Position numbers and translations under genes: made by a program | NCBI GenBank assembly: GCA_024690885.1 | Contig: JAILOI010000037.1 | Span: 1-64,000, forward strand | Length of the DNA: 64,000 nucleotides | Reading direction: 5' to 3' | DNA from: Lachnospiraceae bacterium | GTDB lineage: Bacteria; Bacillota; Clostridia; Lachnospirales; Lachnospiraceae | The notes under the pieces: generated by a model | What the model was told of the DNA's origin: nothing | Database searches by the model: none | The model's input: the letters and a program-made list of their open reading frames with translations, nothing else | In this document: one piece after another, positions 49,264 to 58,810 of the stretch | Layout of the letters: each line of letters starts with the position of its first letter | Position numbering within the stretch: position 1 is the stretch's first letter

Positions 49264-50721
49264 TTAAGCAAGTGCCTTCTCCAGACGGGCAATACCATCC
49301 TGAATCCGGCGTAAGGATTCTTCCTTACCGAAAATTTCCATCAATTCCGTTGCACCACCCGGTGTCATCTGCTTACCGGATACCGCAGTACGGATTGGCC
49401 ATAATACATAGCCGTTCTTATACTCATGCTCTGCAGCAAACTGCTGAATGGTTGCATAAAGTGCATCGTTGGAGTAATCCTCTGCAGCTTCTAATACCGG
49501 AAGTACCTCACGCAGTACGGCAAGCGAAGACTCGGTATTGGTCTTCATCTTCTTGTGGGTGTACATTGCCACATCATAATCCGGCAACGCTTCAAAGAAA
49601 TCAATGTGTTCCTTAATATCCGGGAATACTTCGATTCTGGTCTTTACCATGGCAGCAATCTTCTTCAGATCGTAATCCTTAGTGATTACATCCTTTATGT
49701 ATGGAAGTGCCATCTCGTAGAAGGTATCAAAATCCATGGCCTTCATGTACTCGCCGTTCATCCAGCGAAGCTTCACGGTATCGAATACAGCCGGAGACTT
49801 GCTGATATGATGATAATCAAAGTTCTTCACCAACTCATCCAAGCTCATAATTTCCTGATTGTCTTCCGGGCTCCATCCAAGCAATGCAACGAAGTTAATC
49901 ACCGCCTCGGTTAAGTATCCCTGCTCAATCAAATCCTCGAAAGAAGAATGACCGCTACGCTTGGATAACTTCTGATGCTCCTCGTTGGTAATCAACGGGC
50001 AGTGAATGTAGGTTGGAACTTCCCAGCCGAAGGCCTCATACAGACGGTTGTACTTCGGTGAAGAAGACAAATACTCGTTACCACGAACCACATGGGTGAT
50101 GCCCATCAAGTGATCGTCTACCACGTTGGCAAAGTTATAGGTTGGATATCCGTCGGACTTAATCAAAATCATATCGTCCAATTCGGAATTATCTACGGTA
50201 ATATCTCCATAAATCTCATCGGAGAAGGTGGTGGTACCGGTGCGTGGGTTATTCTGACGAATAACAAAAGGCTTACCGGCTGCTAAGTTTGCCTCTACCT
50301 CTTCCTTAGATAGACCAAGACAATGCTTGTCATAAATGGAAATCTCCTTGCCGGCAACTACCTGCTTCAAGGAATCCAAACGACACTGATCACAGAAGCA
50401 ATAATAGGCCTCTCCCTTGTCAATCAACTTCTTGGCATACTCCATGTAGATGCCGGCCTGCTGACGTTCACTCTGAACATATGGGCCAACACCGCCGTCC
50501 TTGTCCGGACCCTCATCATGAATCAATCCGGTTTTCTCCAAGGTACGATAGATGATGTCTACAGCGCCTTCCACATAACGTTCCTGGTCTGTATCCTCGA
50601 TTCTAAGAATGTAATCTCCATCTTCATGTTTCGCAATTAAGTATGCATACAATGCAGTTCTTAAATTACCCACGTGCATACGGCCGGTTGGGCTTGGTGC
50701 GAATCTAGTTCTAACCTTCAT
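49264..50721 (-). CDS. gltX: Glutamyl-tRNA synthetase
   Basis: [31 protein letters not shown] motif. Start MKVRT with SD AAGGAG. Confidence 0.97.
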
Positions 50722-50783: not shown

Positions 50784-51953
50784 TCATGCCTTAAGTCCGC
50801 ACAATTTGTCAACCGAAGAAATGATCTGCATAATCTCCGGAACGTAGTAATTGTGCTCTTTCATCAAGTGATCGATTTCATCACGCTCACTCTTTAATGC
50901 CTTGGTATTCTCCTGAATACGGGAACGTACTTTGGCACGGCGCTCCACCAGGTTATGGTTTACGCGCTTCATATCCTCCGGGTTTACCAGCGCCCGTACC
51001 TGCTTTAACCAAATCTTGCGATCATAGAGATCGATGGCCTCTAACAGGCGGATATACAACTTGTAGAAGTAATCCAAATCCGTATTGTCCGCTTCGAATC
51101 GCTCCTGGGATTCCACGGTATGGATATAACACTCCCATACATAGTTTAACTCATGGGAATTGGAAATCTCGTAACGCTCCTGTTCATACCGAATGGCTCT
51201 GGTGACATTGGCGTATTTCATCCGCACCACATTCAACAACGCAATGGTATCGTTTAATTTCCGCAAGGTCTTCCGACGGACCTTCTGATTATGGTTTAAT
51301 CCCAGCATCAGCAGCATGGCAATCAGCGCCCCTACGAAGAAGACACCCATAAACACCCCACGTACCGAGGATAACTCCTCCCATAAAAACAGTAAGACCA
51401 CCAGGAAGGAACCAAATACCACCAGCGATAGAATCGCCAGCAGGCGGTACCACTTCTTGGAACGGCTTAGGTCATGATACTCCATATCCAGGCGGCTCTT
51501 CTCCGCCTCTAAATACTGCATATCCTTCTCCACCGTTGCCTGATAACGCTCGTTCTCCTGCATCCGGTGAATGGTGGACGGCAGAATCTCTTCATTCTCC
51601 TCCATCAGGGTATACTGAGCATCCGAAATCAGCGGATCCCGATTCAAGAAGTTCTGTCTTGAATGGGTCAACTCCTCGATGTTCTTGGCGCAGGTCCGCA
51701 AATCCTGTTGCTGCTTGTCCGGCAAATTCTGCAAGGTCTGGATATCCTTCAGATAGTCCGTGATGATACGATATTCGGTTTTCTGCGCTTCAATCTCCTT
51801 GGTGGTGGCAATAATCTGTTCACAGGAATCTAAGATATAATGCTCCAGCTTCTTGGGATTGTCCCAGTCATCAATGCCGCGAATCTCCTCATAAACCTTC
51901 TGAAACGCCGCATCTAATTCCGACTCTTTCTTTTTTTTGCGACTAAAAAACAT
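50784..51953 (-). CDS. Uncharacterised coiled-coil protein with two central TM helices
   Basis: Coiled coil, LLAILSLVVFGSFLVVLLFLW and VFMGVFFVGALIAMLLMLGL, then a second helical region. Confidence 0.75.
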   Translation of the reverse strand: MFFSRKKKKESELDAAFQKVYEEIRGIDDWDNPKKLEHYILDSCEQIIATTKEIEAQKTEYRIITDYLKDIQTLQNLPDKQQQDLRTCAKNIEELTHSRQNFLNRDPLISDAQYTLMEENEEILPSTIHRMQENERYQATVEKDMQYLEAEKSRLDMEYHDLSRSKKWYRLLAILSLVVFGSFLVVLLFLWEELSSVRGVFMGVFFVGALIAMLLMLGLNHNQKVRRKTLRKLNDTIALLNVVRMKYANVTRAIRYEQERYEISNSHELNYVWECYIHTVESQERFEADNTDLDYFYKLYIRLLEAIDLYDRKIWLKQVRALVNPEDMKRVNHNLVERRAKVRSRIQENTKALKSERDEIDHLMKEHNYYVPEIMQIISSVDKLCGLKA

Positions 51954-51967
51954 GTATCCTTGCTCCT

Positions 51968-52795
51968 CTAAATTTTACACAGCCGCGTGTAATCCTTCTT
52001 CCAATCGTCCACGACTTTGGTTAGCTGTTCCATATAAGCAAAGGGTTCCCGATAGTCCACCCGCATCTGGTTGACGGTATCGGAAAAATCCGAAATCTCC
52101 CGACTATGAAATACTTCTTCTACGGCCGACTTTACCGTCGCTACGTCCGCTTCGGCCACTTGGAAGCGGGTGACGGCATGTTCAAATCCATCCATATCCC
52201 GGCCGCACAGATACGCGTAGAGTAAGCTGCGCAGGGAGCCACTGTTATGATTGGCCAGATAAGCCTTCTCGAAGCAGGTGGCTGCCTCCTTGAAGAAGAA
52301 CAACCGACTGTAGGCCGTTCCCAAGTTATGGTATACATTGCCCTCCAGACTCTTGGTCATCTCCAGTTCCCCATCCAAAATATTCTCATATTCATAGATG
52401 GCATCCACCAGACGTTGTTTTTCCATCAAACGATCTCCGCGGATTTTCTTGCATTCCGCCTCCGTCTTATTCTCGAAGGTGGTAATCACTTCCATCAGTT
52501 TCTTGATTTCACTGGCAGTCAGATAGCCACAGGCCGTCAGAATATGACCCACAAAGATGTGCAGCGGCGTATTTTCCTCAATGAGGTGTACCAGCTCCGT
52601 CTCCAACTCCTTCATCCCCAGTTCTTTTCCAATCCAACGGCACAAATCCATATTGGAAAACGATGCATTCAGAAGGTACACATTGTGAGAAATATAATAG
52701 CTTAACTCTTCCAGGGAATAGATATTCAGCGAGAGTTCATCGATAAAATACGGCGTTGCCGCAATGGGTCTTTTGCATAGAATTAATTCTCCCAT
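51968..52795 (-). CDS. Uncharacterised TPR-like protein
   Basis: GNVYHNLGTAYSRLFFFKEAATCFEKAYLANHN TPR repeat. Confidence 0.75.
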   Translation of the reverse strand: MGELILCKRPIAATPYFIDELSLNIYSLEELSYYISHNVYLLNASFSNMDLCRWIGKELGMKELETELVHLIEENTPLHIFVGHILTACGYLTASEIKKLMEVITTFENKTEAECKKIRGDRLMEKQRLVDAIYEYENILDGELEMTKSLEGNVYHNLGTAYSRLFFFKEAATCFEKAYLANHNSGSLRSLLYAYLCGRDMDGFEHAVTRFQVAEADVATVKSAVEEVFHSREISDFSDTVNQMRVDYREPFAYMEQLTKVVDDWKKDYTRLCKI

Positions 52796-52809
52796 GTGTC
52801 CTCCTTTCT

Positions 52810-54054
52810 CTAGGCGATGGAAACCGTATGGCTCCAGGTTTTATTGGTGGCCGGAACCAATTCTCCAAACCCCAAATCTTTGATTTCAATTACCACTTGT
52901 TTATCGTTGGATGCCTTGGCACTGATCCGCAACCGGGTCATCCGGCTTTCTCGTTTCGGTAAATCCGATAACTCCAGCACTTCCACCCGGGATTGACGAT
53001 TGTCGAGGCGCTGTACCCAAACTTCAATCTCCGGCGAACCCTCTAAGATGACTTCACACTCTCCGTGGCTTTCGTACCAGTTATCACCGGCATTCACCAG
53101 ATTCACAAACTTCAATTCATTCTGGTCGCTGACCTTCAAGGAGACATTCAACTTCAGTTCGTTGTCCCCAATGTAGATAAAGGGCCAGTCTCTGCAACCA
53201 TCCTTGATGGCGCCCGCATAGCAGGCCCCCTTGGAATAGAGATTCTTGCCTAAGAACACCCGACGTCCCTGACACAGATGCTGCAAGGACACCTTCATCC
53301 AGTCATCATCGAAGCCATCTCCAATGAGATACACCGCAGAAATATAATCCTCCCCGAACGTCTCCGTAATCACCCTATCAAAGGCCATATCCCTGTTCTC
53401 AATCAGACTGCCGTGGTTGCCCTGTTCTAAGGTCACCACCTGAGGCTTCTGGTACATATCCCGCTTCAGACGGCAATGCAAGAGATTCTTGCCGGTGAAG
53501 TCAAACATCATCACATCGTGTAGGAAGATGGAAGGTTCCTGGTTTAACACGTAATAATAAAAACTCTCCCGATAGTCAATCACCACCAACTGTTGAGAGG
53601 ATAGCCCCATACGGTTGGCCACCATGTTAAAAAGCTCCACTACGGTCAGATTCAACTCTCCCACCGTCACCACCAGTTTCGCCAAGTGACTGCCGGCCTG
53701 ATAAGTTCCAGGCATGGAGAGAATCTTGCGGATAAAAATCATGAACAGTTCCCGACTGTCATAGTCCTCTCCATCCACAAACACCCGCTTGCCACTGAGG
53801 GCGTTCTCATACAAATCCTCCACCGCTTCGGCTTCGTTGGATTGAATCCGCCGTCTGGCTTCATTCCCGAAAAACCACTGTCCCATGCCCTTGCGCTTTG
53901 CAAGCAAGGTGGGAATCTGATATGCTTCCGTTCCCATCACCGTACTTATGGTAGCCGGTTCTTCCATATGCAATTGATAGTAGGAAATCAAGGTATACCT
54001 ATTGCTGATATCCAACCCGAAATATACCCCATCCTCTTTCTTCGTCTGCTCCAT
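52810..54054 (-). CDS. DUF5716-like protein with Hsp70/actin (ASKHA)-type motifs
   Basis: VYFGLDISNRYTLISYY, MMFDFTGKNLLHCRL, VYLIGDGFDDDWMK resemble phosphate-1, phosphate-2 and adenosine motifs. Start MEQTKK with SD AAAGGA. Confidence 0.65.
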   Translation of the reverse strand: MEQTKKEDGVYFGLDISNRYTLISYYQLHMEEPATISTVMGTEAYQIPTLLAKRKGMGQWFFGNEARRRIQSNEAEAVEDLYENALSGKRVFVDGEDYDSRELFMIFIRKILSMPGTYQAGSHLAKLVVTVGELNLTVVELFNMVANRMGLSSQQLVVIDYRESFYYYVLNQEPSIFLHDVMMFDFTGKNLLHCRLKRDMYQKPQVVTLEQGNHGSLIENRDMAFDRVITETFGEDYISAVYLIGDGFDDDWMKVSLQHLCQGRRVFLGKNLYSKGACYAGAIKDGCRDWPFIYIGDNELKLNVSLKVSDQNELKFVNLVNAGDNWYESHGECEVILEGSPEIEVWVQRLDNRQSRVEVLELSDLPKRESRMTRLRISAKASNDKQVVIEIKDLGFGELVPATNKTWSHTVSIA

Positions 54055-54067
54055 AAGTGTGATTCCT

Positions 54068-57000
54068 TTATAACAACGTAAACAACTGCTCGGTTGCAAA
54101 ATCAAAGGACTGATACTGCTTCATGGAAGCCACCAATTCCTTGTCATTCTGATAAACAAAATCGCTTTGCATGCGATTGAGAAGCAAATAACGGCTAAGT
54201 TCCCCGTTCTCCACAATATCCTGGTAGGACAATTCCTCGTGGGCAAGCACTTCGGTGGAATTGTTCACTTCCCGGTAGATGTCATAGGTGATTTTCTCAC
54301 CGAAAAACATCATAAACTGACGGACGTAGATGCCGTCATACATCTCAATCATCTCTTCCGTCTGTTCGTCCCCATCATCCTTCTGATAACGAATAAACAA
54401 ACGCTCCCGCGGCATGCCCCGATACTCGGCAAATACCTTGTCGTAGAGGTGATACTTCACCACCAGACGATCGTCCATCCGGCGGAAAAAGCCAAAGTAG
54501 GTATTCCTTAGAATGTATTCCCGCACCAGCTCGTCCAATAGCTTAAATTCGTGGTTCTCCAGGGAATCCTGTAGGGATAAATACTTCATCATGGCAATCT
54601 GACAGCATTCGTTGGTCTTCTCCCCACGCCGCAGCATGTGGTAGATTTGTTCGAATACATGATCCGGCACCGACGTATCTTCCAGGATATACTGATGTGC
54701 CAGGTAGGTCAGATAGGCCTCCACAATCATCTTGTTATTCTTGTGTTCCAGGTAAGACTCAAACACACCATAGGCCCGCTCGTCCAAGGCATCCATATAG
54801 AGCATCTGAGTTAAAATCCGCTCCTCCAGCGCCGAGGTATCCAACTGTCTGGCCGCCGCAAAGGTCCATAGGGTTATCATCTCTTCCGTCGGACCGGCGA
54901 AGTGATAATTCAAATAAAACAGCGTCTCTTCCGTGGACAGATACTGCTTCAACAGAGCCGCACAAACACTCACCAAAAAATCATCCGTGGTATCCAAATC
55001 AGCCTGTAATTTCTTGGTCACCAGGCGCAGCATCAACTTCTTCGACGCGTTCCACACATGATAGTGGGAAAAGATTTCAAAGGCCTTATCATAGGCATCA
55101 CTTAACACCAAAAGTTCAAAGATAAAGCACATGGTCTTCGAATCCAGATGTTCATAATCCCGCTCCTGCATCAGATGTTCATTCAGAAGCGCTTCCTGGC
55201 CGTGGGCCTGTAAGAACTTAATAAAGAACGGGTACATCTTGTGCTTGTAAGCATCTGAAATCCAATCGGAATTATAGAATCCCACCACCTTGTCCATATC
55301 TTCGGAGGATAATTCCAGAGACTCCTCAAATTCCGTAAGATCATGGACAAAATAATGCAGCGGTTTCGTGGTCAACTGCTTAAAACGATCAATCAGTTGC
55401 GGTCCCTGGAGGAGCGTTTCTATGAAGTAGGCATGATCATCGGTAATTAAGTTGCTGCCCTTCTCCTCCAAGAAAATCTGATAATGATCTGTATAGAGCG
55501 GTACGTAAGCCACACGGTTTACCACCGGTACAATCACCGGCTTGTCCAACGCCTCTTCAAACACCATCACCCGGGTAATATCCGGGTAGATGCAGATGAT
55601 CTTCTTGGTAAAAAACAAACTTGCCATGGCATCTGCCACGTCCCCATCAATCATCTTATGATCCAAGGCATCCTGGTAGATAATAGCCCGGTTGTCATCC
55701 ATCTTGCCCAGCTGCATCTCTTCGAGCGCAAAGCGTTCGATGGTCTTCTGATACTGCTTATAAATCTGCTCCTGGGAGCGCTTATTGGTAATGATATTGG
55801 CGTATAGAAAGGCCCGCATATTAGCCGGCAGCTTGTTCTGATAGCCGAAATACATGGCCACCGCATTGGGCAGCGGATCAATGGAATCCTTGGGCAGGGA
55901 CAACAGGAAGGCTTCGTAAAGTCCCGTCACTTTAATCTCATGCTCCACACCAAGCGCATACCAATGATGGTATACTTCTTCCACCTTCTGCGCCGTAATC
56001 AAATACCGAAGGATGGCCGCCAGAAGTTCTTCTTCCCCAAACTGCTGATAGGTTTGTCCCACAATGGTAAATACCCGATCCCGGAAGGTTTTCTCCTGTT
56101 CCAGCAAATGGGTAATCTGGATAGCTAAGTTGCCGGTAATGCCATCGTGTTTTCTGGCCCAGTTTAAAATCTTCAAGGAGAAGGCATCGAAGGATTGTAC
56201 CAGATACGGATCCTGGCAAATCAAATCATAGGCTTCAATATACAAGAACGGCGAGTCCACTCCGGCCATCACCCACTGGGCAATTGCCTTTAATTTCTGG
56301 GCGCGGTCGTTGATGTACTCCTTTCGTAAAAAGGTCAAAAACCAAAAGATACGAACATCTTCCGGATGCTCACGGAAAATCAGTTCAATTTCCCGGGTCA
56401 GACGATCCACATAGTTTTCTTCCGGTTCAATCAAGGTGCACAGATAGAGCAAATACGCCCATTCCGTAGACTTCTTATCACTGATATCCTGCTTCAATTG
56501 TTGGATTTCCCACAACGCATCCTGGCGCTGCTTGTTGGCAATCAAGGCATGGGTTTTGATCAGATTAAAATACGGATTCTGCTGAATCTCCTCGCTCATG
56601 GTGGACATGAGGGCGATGGTCTGGTTACACCAATCACCGGTGGTCATCTTCCGCAGACGATAGTTTACATACATGGAGAGCAATTGATACTTGATTTTCT
56701 TGGTCTCTAAGCTCTTCGATTCCACCAAATCTTCTTCGTCACAAGTAGCGGCCATAATATGGATTTCCCGATGTTCCCCGCCACCGTCAAAGGTGATTCT
56801 GGCATAATTCTTGCCGGCATGAAGGCGATTCTTGTGAATGTAGTAATTCAAGGACAAGGTACTGCCCACGAAGAAATCAGCTGTAATATAGGTATTCTCC
56901 AAGGTAATAAACTCCGCATCACAAGCAATGCGAATATCAATATTGCCCCAGGTGTTCTTCGTAATTTCAATGGACTCCTTCTGGTTTTCGTCCACATGAT

Positions 57001-57607
57001 AATACACCCGATCCTTGGTATCCAAGGTGTAGGTCACCGCACTTTTTTGGTTGCAGGCAACCAAAAAAGCCTCCAAGTTCCGAGACGTTGGCGGCACACT
57101 GATAAAGCCACGATATAATAATTGGATGTTACCGGATTGGTGTGTGATAAACTCAGAAAATTCCTTGGAATAAAACAACTGCATCGCTTCATTCCAATGT
57201 CCGTTGGCCAGGGACGCAAAGTCCGAAAGCTCACGGATTTCCCCAATGGAAGAGGTGGGGTATTTTCGCACATAATGCACATCAAAAGGAAGGTGATACT
57301 CACAGCCGTTTCCAATAATATCAAAGGAACCGGAAATTGTATCCCCCTCATAAAAGCCCTGATGAATTACCTGGAAATGAATCTTGGATTCCAACCCGTC
57401 GAACTGCGGTGTCCCGATATAAATATAGGGATTGGTACAGTACACCATCCCTCGTACAGGCACCTGATTGGTACTACGTATAACAAAATCTCCTTCACAG
57501 CCTTCGAATGCGTGACAAGAGATTTCGATTTCGCCCGGTTGAATATCTAAAATCGGCTTTTCATCATCGAATTGTCCTTCCGACAATCGCCAAATTCTTC
57601 TGCGCAC
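54068..57607 (-). CDS. DUF5717-like 1179-aa protein, beta-rich N-terminus plus TPR-like helical region
   Basis: GTG start with SD AAGGAG; N-terminal Ig-like repeats and long alpha-repeat C-terminal part. Confidence 0.75.
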   Translation of the reverse strand: MRRRIWRLSEGQFDDEKPILDIQPGEIEISCHAFEGCEGDFVIRSTNQVPVRGMVYCTNPYIYIGTPQFDGLESKIHFQVIHQGFYEGDTISGSFDIIGNGCEYHLPFDVHYVRKYPTSSIGEIRELSDFASLANGHWNEAMQLFYSKEFSEFITHQSGNIQLLYRGFISVPPTSRNLEAFLVACNQKSAVTYTLDTKDRVYYHVDENQKESIEITKNTWGNIDIRIACDAEFITLENTYITADFFVGSTLSLNYYIHKNRLHAGKNYARITFDGGGEHREIHIMAATCDEEDLVESKSLETKKIKYQLLSMYVNYRLRKMTTGDWCNQTIALMSTMSEEIQQNPYFNLIKTHALIANKQRQDALWEIQQLKQDISDKKSTEWAYLLYLCTLIEPEENYVDRLTREIELIFREHPEDVRIFWFLTFLRKEYINDRAQKLKAIAQWVMAGVDSPFLYIEAYDLICQDPYLVQSFDAFSLKILNWARKHDGITGNLAIQITHLLEQEKTFRDRVFTIVGQTYQQFGEEELLAAILRYLITAQKVEEVYHHWYALGVEHEIKVTGLYEAFLLSLPKDSIDPLPNAVAMYFGYQNKLPANMRAFLYANIITNKRSQEQIYKQYQKTIERFALEEMQLGKMDDNRAIIYQDALDHKMIDGDVADAMASLFFTKKIICIYPDITRVMVFEEALDKPVIVPVVNRVAYVPLYTDHYQIFLEEKGSNLITDDHAYFIETLLQGPQLIDRFKQLTTKPLHYFVHDLTEFEESLELSSEDMDKVVGFYNSDWISDAYKHKMYPFFIKFLQAHGQEALLNEHLMQERDYEHLDSKTMCFIFELLVLSDAYDKAFEIFSHYHVWNASKKLMLRLVTKKLQADLDTTDDFLVSVCAALLKQYLSTEETLFYLNYHFAGPTEEMITLWTFAAARQLDTSALEERILTQMLYMDALDERAYGVFESYLEHKNNKMIVEAYLTYLAHQYILEDTSVPDHVFEQIYHMLRRGEKTNECCQIAMMKYLSLQDSLENHEFKLLDELVREYILRNTYFGFFRRMDDRLVVKYHLYDKVFAEYRGMPRERLFIRYQKDDGDEQTEEMIEMYDGIYVRQFMMFFGEKITYDIYREVNNSTEVLAHEELSYQDIVENGELSRYLLLNRMQSDFVYQNDKELVASMKQYQSFDFATEQLFTLL

Positions 57608-57634
57608 AATTTGCTCCTTAACGTACTGGATCGG

Positions 57635-57662
57635 TTGATTTTGCGACCCAAAAAGCTATAAT
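57635..57662 (+). promoter_or_regulatory. SigA-type promoter of the aminotransferase gene
   Basis: TTGATT-N16-TATAAT. Confidence 0.65.
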
Positions 57663-57663
57663 G

Positions 57664-57692
57664 ATTATAAACCATTTGCCTAGGACAGACAA
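57664..57692 (-). promoter_or_regulatory. SigA-type promoter of the four-gene DUF5717 cluster
   Basis: Minus strand TTGTCT-N17-TATAAT. Confidence 0.75.
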
Positions 57693-57721: not shown

Positions 57722-58810
57722 ATGATTGAGCACAAGGACCACTTTCACGGAAGTGACCTCGAAAAAATAGAAGCCATCTATGGCATTCCCAAGGAGGAAA
57801 TTCTCTCCTTTTCTGCTAACGTCAATCCCCTTGGAATTTCCACCAAACTTCGGCAGGAATTATCCAATCACATTGATGTCATTACCAGTTACCCGGACCG
57901 GGAATATACCGCTCTGCGTACGGCAATCGCCAATTATTGCGGCACCAAGCCGGAACATATTCTGGTTGGCAACGGTTCTACTGAGCTGATTGCACTTTTT
58001 ATCCAGATTACCCATCCAAAGAAGGCCCTGATTCTCGGCCCTACCTATTCGGAATACGAGCGGGAAATCTCGCTCGAGGGCGGTCGTACCACCTATTTCC
58101 CACTACGGGAGCAGCAGGAATTCACCCTTCAATTAGAAGACTTCAAAAGCAAGCTCACCGACGACTTGGATTTGGTGGTATTGTGTAACCCCAACAATCC
58201 AACCTCCACTTGCATCAGCAAGCAGGATATGCGAGATATCTTAGATGTTTGCAAGGAGCATTCCATCTATGTAATGGTGGATGAAACCTATGTGGAATTT
58301 GTGGATGACATTGCAGCCATCACGGCCATTCCACTTACCGCTTATTACAACAATATCATCATCCTGCGCGGAACCTCGAAGTTCTTTGCCGCCCCGGGGC
58401 TACGTCTTGGCTATGCCATCACCGGCAATACCGATTTGTTACATCAAATCAGCCAGTACAAGAACCCTTGGATGATCAATTCCCTGGCTGAGAAAGCGGG
58501 CGAGATTATGTTCTCCGATATCGATTATATCCAACAGGCCCGCGCCTTAATTATGACGGAGCGGAAGCGCTTGTATGAGAAGTACAATGCAACCACCCGC
58601 TTCCATGCTTATGCGCCCACTGCCAACTTCATGCTTCTGAAGATTTTGGATGAACAGGAAACCGCAGAATCCTTGTTTGATCGGGCTATTCGCGAAGGCA
58701 TGATGATTCGCGATTGTTCCACCTTCCCATTCTTAAGCGATCGATTCATTCGCATCTGCTTTATGTCACCGGAAGATAACGATCGCCTCTACGACTGTTT
58801 AACCCGCTAA
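57722..58810 (+). CDS. HisC/CobD-like PLP-dependent aminotransferase or decarboxylase
   Basis: Fold-type I motifs: FSANVNPLG, CNPNNPTSTCI, VDETYVEFVDD, LRGTSKFFAAPGLRLGYA. SD GGAGG. Confidence 0.88.
   Translation: MIEHKDHFHGSDLEKIEAIYGIPKEEILSFSANVNPLGISTKLRQELSNHIDVITSYPDREYTALRTAIANYCGTKPEHILVGNGSTELIALFIQITHPKKALILGPTYSEYEREISLEGGRTTYFPLREQQEFTLQLEDFKSKLTDDLDLVVLCNPNNPTSTCISKQDMRDILDVCKEHSIYVMVDETYVEFVDDIAAITAIPLTAYYNNIIILRGTSKFFAAPGLRLGYAITGNTDLLHQISQYKNPWMINSLAEKAGEIMFSDIDYIQQARALIMTERKRLYEKYNATTRFHAYAPTANFMLLKILDEQETAESLFDRAIREGMMIRDCSTFPFLSDRFIRICFMSPEDNDRLYDCLTR

Follow-up and report, generated by a model that had tools for sequence, protein, structure and literature searches.

A degenerate Hsp70 in a near-universal Lachnospiraceae gene cluster, apparently the reduced form of a multi-Hsp70 operon

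The described systems closest to the four-gene cluster reported here, which occupies positions 50784-57692 (minus strand) of a 64,000-nucleotide stretch of Lachnospiraceae bacterium DNA (contig JAILOI010000037.1; hereafter the window), are the Hsp70 chaperone DnaK, the yeast protein Ssz1, the HSP70-GrpE theme of the GAP1-N2 systems and the Pfam families DUF5716 and DUF5717 themselves. DnaK/Hsp70 (PF00012) is like DUF5716, the product of the second gene of the cluster, in fold (a nucleotide-binding domain, NBD, followed by the beta part of the substrate-binding domain, SBD-beta) and, through an operon protein that we call Hsp70-B, in ancestry, but DUF5716 is without K70, E171 and T199 of DnaK, without NBD subdomain IIB and without the alpha-helical lid. 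Ssz1 of the yeast ribosome-associated complex, a lidless Hsp70 that does not hydrolyse ATP and is kept in a stable complex by a partner, offers an analogy of working (PMC8476630); unlike DUF5716 it binds ATP, is eukaryotic and has a J-protein as partner, and the two have no common immediate ancestry. The nearest published description is that of the GAP1-N2 HSP70-GrpE theme (Kaur et al., 2020; PMC7159879), which shares HSP70, GrpE, a truncated HSP70 and FNIII/TPR neighbours with the operon described below. The GAP1-N2 systems, however, have a GTPase/GAP1 core, whereas the present operon is without one, has a vertical, order-wide distribution, and contains DUF5717 and an Hsp70-VWA fusion. DUF5716 (PF18980) and DUF5717 (PF18983/PF18984), to which the products of the second and first genes (g2 and g1) belong by score, had no assigned function, and no functional paper on either was found in the literature searched, where a single unrelated paper mentions them; the present analysis connects them with Hsp70 and with an Ig/solenoid scaffold.

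DUF5716 is homologous to Hsp70. The g2 gene (52810..54054, minus strand, ATG start, 414 aa) is predicted from profile comparison, AlphaFold modelling, Foldseek and a tree to encode a degenerate Hsp70 consisting of an NBD without subdomain IIB and SBD-beta, with no alpha lid. A preliminary description of this DNA had named the two larger proteins of the cluster as DUF5716 and DUF5717, and their Pfam matches lie well above the cut-offs (for g2, DUF5716_C at E 2e-104, 349 bits against a curated cut-off of 34.7; for g1, DUF5717_N at E 5e-240, 799 bits, and DUF5717 at E 1e-86, 291 bits, cut-off 25). The Pfam HSP70 profile (PF00012) did not detect g2 directly, and a direct profile search against PDB sequences returned DnaK alone, at E 0.31; so weak a match would, on sequence alone, leave the case open, and it was the operon relatives and the fold that resolved it. 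When the AlphaFold model of g2 (predicted local distance difference test score, pLDDT, 90.7) was compared with the PDB by Foldseek, DnaK in its complex with GrpE (4ani) matched across NBD and SBD-beta at E 9.6e-20 (prob 1.00), followed by 2v7y at E 4.5e-19; lidless DnaK was among the best matches, the atypical Hsp70s Ssz1 (5e-16) and Sse1 were also matched, and each of the 50 best-listed folds was an Hsp70-type protein or a complex containing one. With normalisation by the query, TM-scores came to about 0.42-0.60, a range to be expected when two domains are joined by a hinge and one subdomain is lacking. The link in sequence is transitive, in that hhalign joined DUF5716 to Hsp70-B (100%, E 1.1e-52) and to the canonical-looking Hsp70-C (99.3%, E 1.2e-20), and Hsp70-B in turn matches Pfam HSP70 at E 1.4e-17 and DnaK in the PDB at E 5e-11. 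The preliminary description had called g2 ASKHA-like; a fold of that type is present in the model, with DnaK closest, yet the label is too weak, since fold and ancestry point to a bona fide Hsp70 descendant with both NBD and SBD-beta (residues 301-412, 52819..53154, minus strand; AlphaFold, Foldseek) and not to a generic ASKHA protein. No alpha-helical lid was seen in the model, which ends with SBD-beta strands at residue 412; taken with the missing catalytic residues and subdomain IIB, this makes DUF5716 best described as a predicted pseudo-Hsp70.

The degeneration extends to the nucleotide site. Aligned with Hsp70, g2 (minus strand throughout) has FGLDISNRY at the phosphate-1 position (53992..54024), with the Asp kept and the TT lost, FDFTGKNL in place of FDFGGGTL at the phosphate-2 position (53482..53508), with the catalytic Thr lost, and LIGDGFDDDW in place of LLEGGSSSMPW at the adenosine-motif position (53299..53331). 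The Hsp70/actin-like motifs noticed in the preliminary description are thus at homologous Hsp70 positions, but the residues equivalent to K70, E171 and T199 of DnaK have become R, Y and N in the window's g2, and E171 and the GGGT loop are lost in all 30 DUF5716 proteins compared. DnaK and the operon proteins Hsp70-A, -C and -V (the VWA fusion) keep the phosphate-1 (DLGTT/DFGTT), phosphate-2 (GGGT) and adenosine (GGS/GGT) motifs together with E171; K70 is kept in DnaK and in nearly all Hsp70-A and -V, but not in Hsp70-C. The motifs of Hsp70-B are already eroded in the full operons, and DUF5716 retains, as a rule, only the phosphate-1 Gly-x-Asp and, at the adenosine site, an altered motif, GxGFxxxW. 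The spacer between the T199 position and the adenosine motif is 54-71 residues long in DUF5716, against 109-146 in Hsp70-B and 137 in DnaK, and in the g2 model the strands that follow phosphate-2 run straight into the helix that precedes the adenosine site. Alignment, hhalign and the model thus all place a junction at 53392..53409, where about 75 residues are missing, and indicate that the whole of subdomain IIB has been lost from DUF5716.

Subdomain IIB forms part of the Hsp70 adenine pocket. It is also the target of all known nucleotide exchange factors (PMC4753570). With the catalytic residues and IIB both lost, ATP cycling by DUF5716 is very unlikely and its ATP-independence is strongly implied; the protein should neither cycle ATP nor respond to any exchange factor, and we infer that it does not bind ATP. 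For the membrane-linked chaperone or scaffold first proposed for the cluster, this makes an ATP-driven chaperone unlikely, and it is the scaffold half of the proposal that survives as our leading interpretation.

Many genomes from the order's other families carry the genes of the cluster inside a longer operon, of which no description was found in the literature searched. The typical locus reads (N-terminal Ig part)-DUF5717-Hsp70-A-GrpE-domain protein-Hsp70-B-Hsp70-C-Hsp70-VWA-TPR-two-TM-valS, where TM denotes transmembrane segments, with Pfam matches to HSP70 at 5e-76, 1.4e-17, 7e-63 and 4e-96, to GrpE at 3e-13, to VWA at 2e-10 and to TPR at 5e-26. The operon Hsp70s stop after SBD-beta, and the fusion carries VWA where the lid would be. 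At L051:6494-8572, the VWA of this fusion contains a MIDAS-like (metal-ion-dependent adhesion site) motif, DTTGS, and the arrangement is conserved in full operons; at L051:11869-13803, the GrpE domain is C-terminal in a protein of 560-640 aa whose long N-terminal part has no Pfam match above cut-off. After the TM gene, full operons L045, L049, L052, L055 and L162 have valS (in genome G038 the TM-valS pair has moved by about 30 kb), and valS also comes after the cluster in two Lachnospiraceae loci (L033 and L038); this supports positional orthology of g4 with the full-operon TM gene. That the cluster is a remnant of a multi-Hsp70/GrpE operon escaped the preliminary description because other genomes are needed to see it.

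A maximum-likelihood tree rooted on DnaK, with support from the Shimodaira-Hasegawa-like approximate likelihood ratio test (SH-aLRT), places DUF5716 as a single clade (100), sister to the Hsp70-B of L045 (99) and within the Hsp70-B clade (100); the method is a quick one and several B branches are long, leaving the finer branching unsure. By this tree DUF5716 is a descendant of Hsp70-B with a single origin, and the intermediate, L045, still carries GrpE and other Hsp70s. (At L045:5204-8383, in genome G003, the Hsp70-VWA and TPR genes are broken into several frames, through assembly errors or an operon in decay.) When 18 genomes were searched with HSP70 and GrpE profiles, Lachnospiraceae members and G167 (family f8) had the housekeeping DnaK, weak MreB-type matches and one full-strength GrpE, the few further matches coming from contig fragments or, in G028, from an additional Hsp70-like gene that lies apart from the cluster; the full-operon genomes had three to four additional Hsp70s, nearly all in the operon, and a second, weaker GrpE in the operon. 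The powered parts have therefore been lost from the sampled Lachnospiraceae and not relocated, and tree and profile searches together identify the cluster as a reduced form of the larger operon. An independent reduction is seen in genome G016, from another family, where DUF5717 and Hsp70-B stand side by side at L064, followed by the unrelated genes WecG-type, YitT and secA; a TM homolog of g4 lies elsewhere in that genome and there are no accessory Hsp70s (GrpE was not searched for there). In family f22 (L052, L162, L163 and L164), a very divergent short Hsp70-B (412-433 aa) lies beside intact GrpE and Hsp70s, apparently a second path of degeneration.

The reduced cluster is conserved across its family. 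A scan of 84,980 species genomes gave 455 relatives of g2, of which 80 were kept for comparison of loci; the query was Lachnospiraceae-centred, since DUF5716 and full-operon Hsp70-B combined offered no conserved stretch, and the loci found are accordingly of the reduced type. All kept relatives with taxon-specific titles were from Lachnospiraceae or from genera usually placed in or near that family. The order g1-g2-g3-g4 was found in 66 of the 80 loci, contig ends cutting most of the others, so that the co-occurrence on which the preliminary description depended is borne out. In a sample with nearly one genome per genus, PF18980 was present in 293 of 299 Lachnospiraceae genomes (242 of the 245 of high quality), almost always as a single copy; three high-quality genomes (G790, G851 and G858) have no PF18980 match and represent natural losses. 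A sample of the whole order (196 genomes) had PF18980 in 89, DUF5717 in 93 and both in 88, in 64 of which the two lie within about 12 kb on the same contig, and no match over cut-off was obtained in genome samples of the class and phylum outside the order. With such near-universal, single-copy, order-restricted occurrence, the DUF5716 gene is a lineage-restricted core gene and not part of a mobile island.

The genes themselves are real and under strong purifying selection. As first described, four open reading frames follow one another closely on the minus strand, with gaps of 13, 14 and 14 nt (g1-g2, g2-g3 and g3-g4; medians among 70-77 relatives 15, 10 and 17 nt) and a purine-rich ribosome-binding site before each of the four starts. 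Against the nearest relative, L071 (82-87% aa identity), the ratio of non-synonymous to synonymous substitution (dN/dS) is 0.04-0.08 across g1-g4, a rough figure with dS close to saturation. The g1 gene (54068..57607, minus strand, GTG start, 1179 aa; dN/dS 0.05) is predicted by Pfam, AlphaFold and Foldseek to encode an Ig-like/alpha-solenoid scaffold protein, in agreement with its initial description as a giant Ig/TPR protein. Its model (pLDDT 85.7) contains, all on the minus strand, a first Ig-like beta-sandwich (residues 20-113, 57269..57550) that Foldseek likens to Ig/ASH-type domains of ciliary proteins, a second (residues 193-287, 56747..57031; model and Foldseek), a first TPR-like alpha-solenoid (residues 298-664, 55616..56716) resembling Ski3, Ctr9 and IFT-A, a beta insert, a second alpha-solenoid (residues 736-1051, 54455..55402) and a C-terminal beta domain (residues 1057-1127). 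We take the likeness to ciliary Ig/ASH proteins, Ski3 and Ctr9 in this model as structural analogy only. The Ig part is a separate gene in L047 and L045 and is fused to DUF5717 in Lachnospiraceae and L051, which suggests that the parts work together.

The two small partners were also recognized at the outset, as a TPR protein and a two-TM coiled-coil membrane protein. The g3 product (51968..52795, minus strand, 275 aa) has a Pfam TPR match below cut-off (E 4e-5) and a weak match to the PilW profile (E 0.007); by Pfam and gene position it is the ortholog of the full-operon TPR protein, which has four clear TPRs (5e-26). The g4 product (50784..51953, minus strand, 389 aa) matches no Pfam family above cut-off and is predicted to form a TM hairpin (residues 171-189 and 199-217, 51303..51443, minus strand) with flanking coiled coils; TM prediction and position identify it as the ortholog of the TM protein encoded beside valS.

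Our current working hypothesis, to which we give slightly better than even chances, is that the cluster is the non-catalytic core left from a multi-Hsp70 operon and acts as a pseudo-Hsp70 scaffold, tethered to the membrane and independent of nucleotide. In the full operon, the powered Hsp70s would have loaded, remodelled or recycled a DUF5717-Hsp70-B unit. The ancestor of Lachnospiraceae would then have lost the predicted ATP-competent Hsp70s and the exchange factor while keeping the parts that were never ATP-dependent, and DUF5716, derived from an already catalytically degenerate Hsp70-B, has also lost IIB. DUF5716, whose modelled SBD-beta is intact, may now serve as a static module for binding clients or partners while held on the DUF5717 scaffold, with g3 as a putative TPR adaptor and g4 as a putative membrane anchor; the outcome would be a membrane-tethered assembly or holding platform that acts passively, as scaffold or holdase, perhaps together with the housekeeping DnaK. 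What is retained is DUF5717, the Hsp70-B descendant, TPR and usually TM in Lachnospiraceae, and DUF5717 and Hsp70-B in G016; as the two reductions keep the same core without the ATPase, we infer that DUF5717-Hsp70-B is the working core. The physical complex, its binding of clients and their nature, its membrane localisation and the role of the cluster are all proposals.

Several observations weigh against this hypothesis. The phosphate-1 Gly-x-Asp is nearly invariant in DUF5716 and could, from its conservation, reflect residual ligand binding. In G016, which has no accessory Hsp70s, Hsp70-B nevertheless keeps IIB (a 131-residue spacer); the subdomain can thus outlast the partner Hsp70s, and this genome excludes a strict rule tying the disappearance of IIB to that of the Hsp70/GrpE partners. 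The g4 gene is absent or escapes detection in several Lachnospiraceae genomes. It is missing from G193, G110, G173 and G167 and marginal in G102, so that tethering to the membrane by g4 is not essential everywhere, and in family f5 DUF5717 is often on a different contig from the Hsp70 genes. No g4 follows g3 in the Eisenbergiella loci L130, L140 and L148.

The main rival, which we consider unlikely, is that DUF5716 is a co-chaperone of the housekeeping DnaK in the manner of Ssz1 or Hsp110, binding DnaK or J-proteins and recruiting DnaK through DUF5717 and g4 to the membrane or to a special client. The Foldseek matches of g2 to the atypical Ssz1 and Sse1 are consistent with such a role, as are the lidless state of Ssz1, with its little or no ATP hydrolysis (PMC8476630), and the housekeeping GrpE-DnaK of the genome; Ssz1 and Sse1, however, still bind ATP (PMC8476630) through a site that DUF5716 has lost, Pfam detected no J-domain among the operon proteins, and branch lengths in the tree show DUF5716 evolving fast while DnaK does not. 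It is improbable that the cluster is a conflict or antiphage system akin to the GAP1-N2 GTPase systems, even though their HSP70-GrpE theme joins HSP70, GrpE, a second HSP70 without peptide-binding domain and firmicute proteins in which FNIII is fused with DnaJ or TPR (Kaur et al., 2020; PMC7159879): none of the genes assigned in the full operons L045, L049, L051 and L055 encodes a GTPase or GAP1, PADLOC matches the Hsp70 NBD only weakly and to a single candidate model, and, unlike mobile defence genes, the gene is nearly always single-copy, occurs in 98% of Lachnospiraceae and was not seen in our samples from beyond the order. A cell-division or pilus module, with DUF5716 as an actin-like filament or pilus-assembly ATPase of the FtsA/MreB/PilM type, would suit the shared ASKHA superfamily, the membrane coiled-coil and TPR partners and the weak PilW match of g3, but is very improbable and is contradicted by fold and tree, as the best folds are DnaK across NBD and SBD-beta, descent is from Hsp70-B and the nucleotide site is destroyed. 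That the Lachnospiraceae set is a decaying, functionless remnant, as the loss of several ancestral genes and a whole subdomain might suggest, is scarcely credible and is refuted by selection and retention (dN/dS 0.04-0.08, 293 of 299 genomes, conserved gene order).

Returning to the pseudo-Hsp70 scaffold, we think it fairly probable that the Lachnospirales own a dedicated chaperone machine, so far undescribed, in which four lidless Hsp70s (one VWA-fused with a MIDAS-like motif, one a pseudo-Hsp70) and a GrpE of their own are combined with an Ig/solenoid scaffold, a TPR adaptor and a membrane anchor, and that Lachnospiraceae dropped the powered part, leaving a near-universal, nucleotide-independent pseudo-Hsp70 machine without the exchange-factor subdomain. 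By uniting several Hsp70s with a single GrpE and a giant scaffold, the full operon would be an Hsp70 machine of new architecture, and the reduced form would be a natural experiment on the use of Hsp70 without ATP. DUF5716 lost the subdomain gripped by exchange factors, and the linked exchange factor disappeared from the same lineage, a coincidence that amounts to one loss event. Lachnospiraceae rank with the most common bacteria of gut and rumen, and the cluster consists of near-universal core genes without assigned function in the literature searched; the tie to Hsp70 gives it a testable biochemical hypothesis.

A putative sigma-A promoter, TTGTCT-17-TATAAT (57664..57692, minus strand), lies 5' of the cluster, where the preliminary description had placed a SigA-type promoter. 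Matches of this kind are no more frequent in the region than expected by chance (11 found against 12.3 expected in a consensus scan), although L071 (and, judged by eye, L089) conserves TATAAT together with its flanks, so that the promoter is plausible, not proven. The divergent aminotransferase-like gene at 57722-58810 (plus strand) is the upstream neighbour of the cluster in 36 of 69 relatives. Downstream, gltX (49264-50721) starts 62 nt past g4 with no scanned terminator between, and the transcript may therefore run on; gltX was rejected as a co-transcribed part of the system, its adjacency being local (7 of 74 relatives only). Terminator-like sites between 50500 and 58000 numbered 19 against 6.3 expected (SD 2.4), mostly within coding sequence and on the coding strand.

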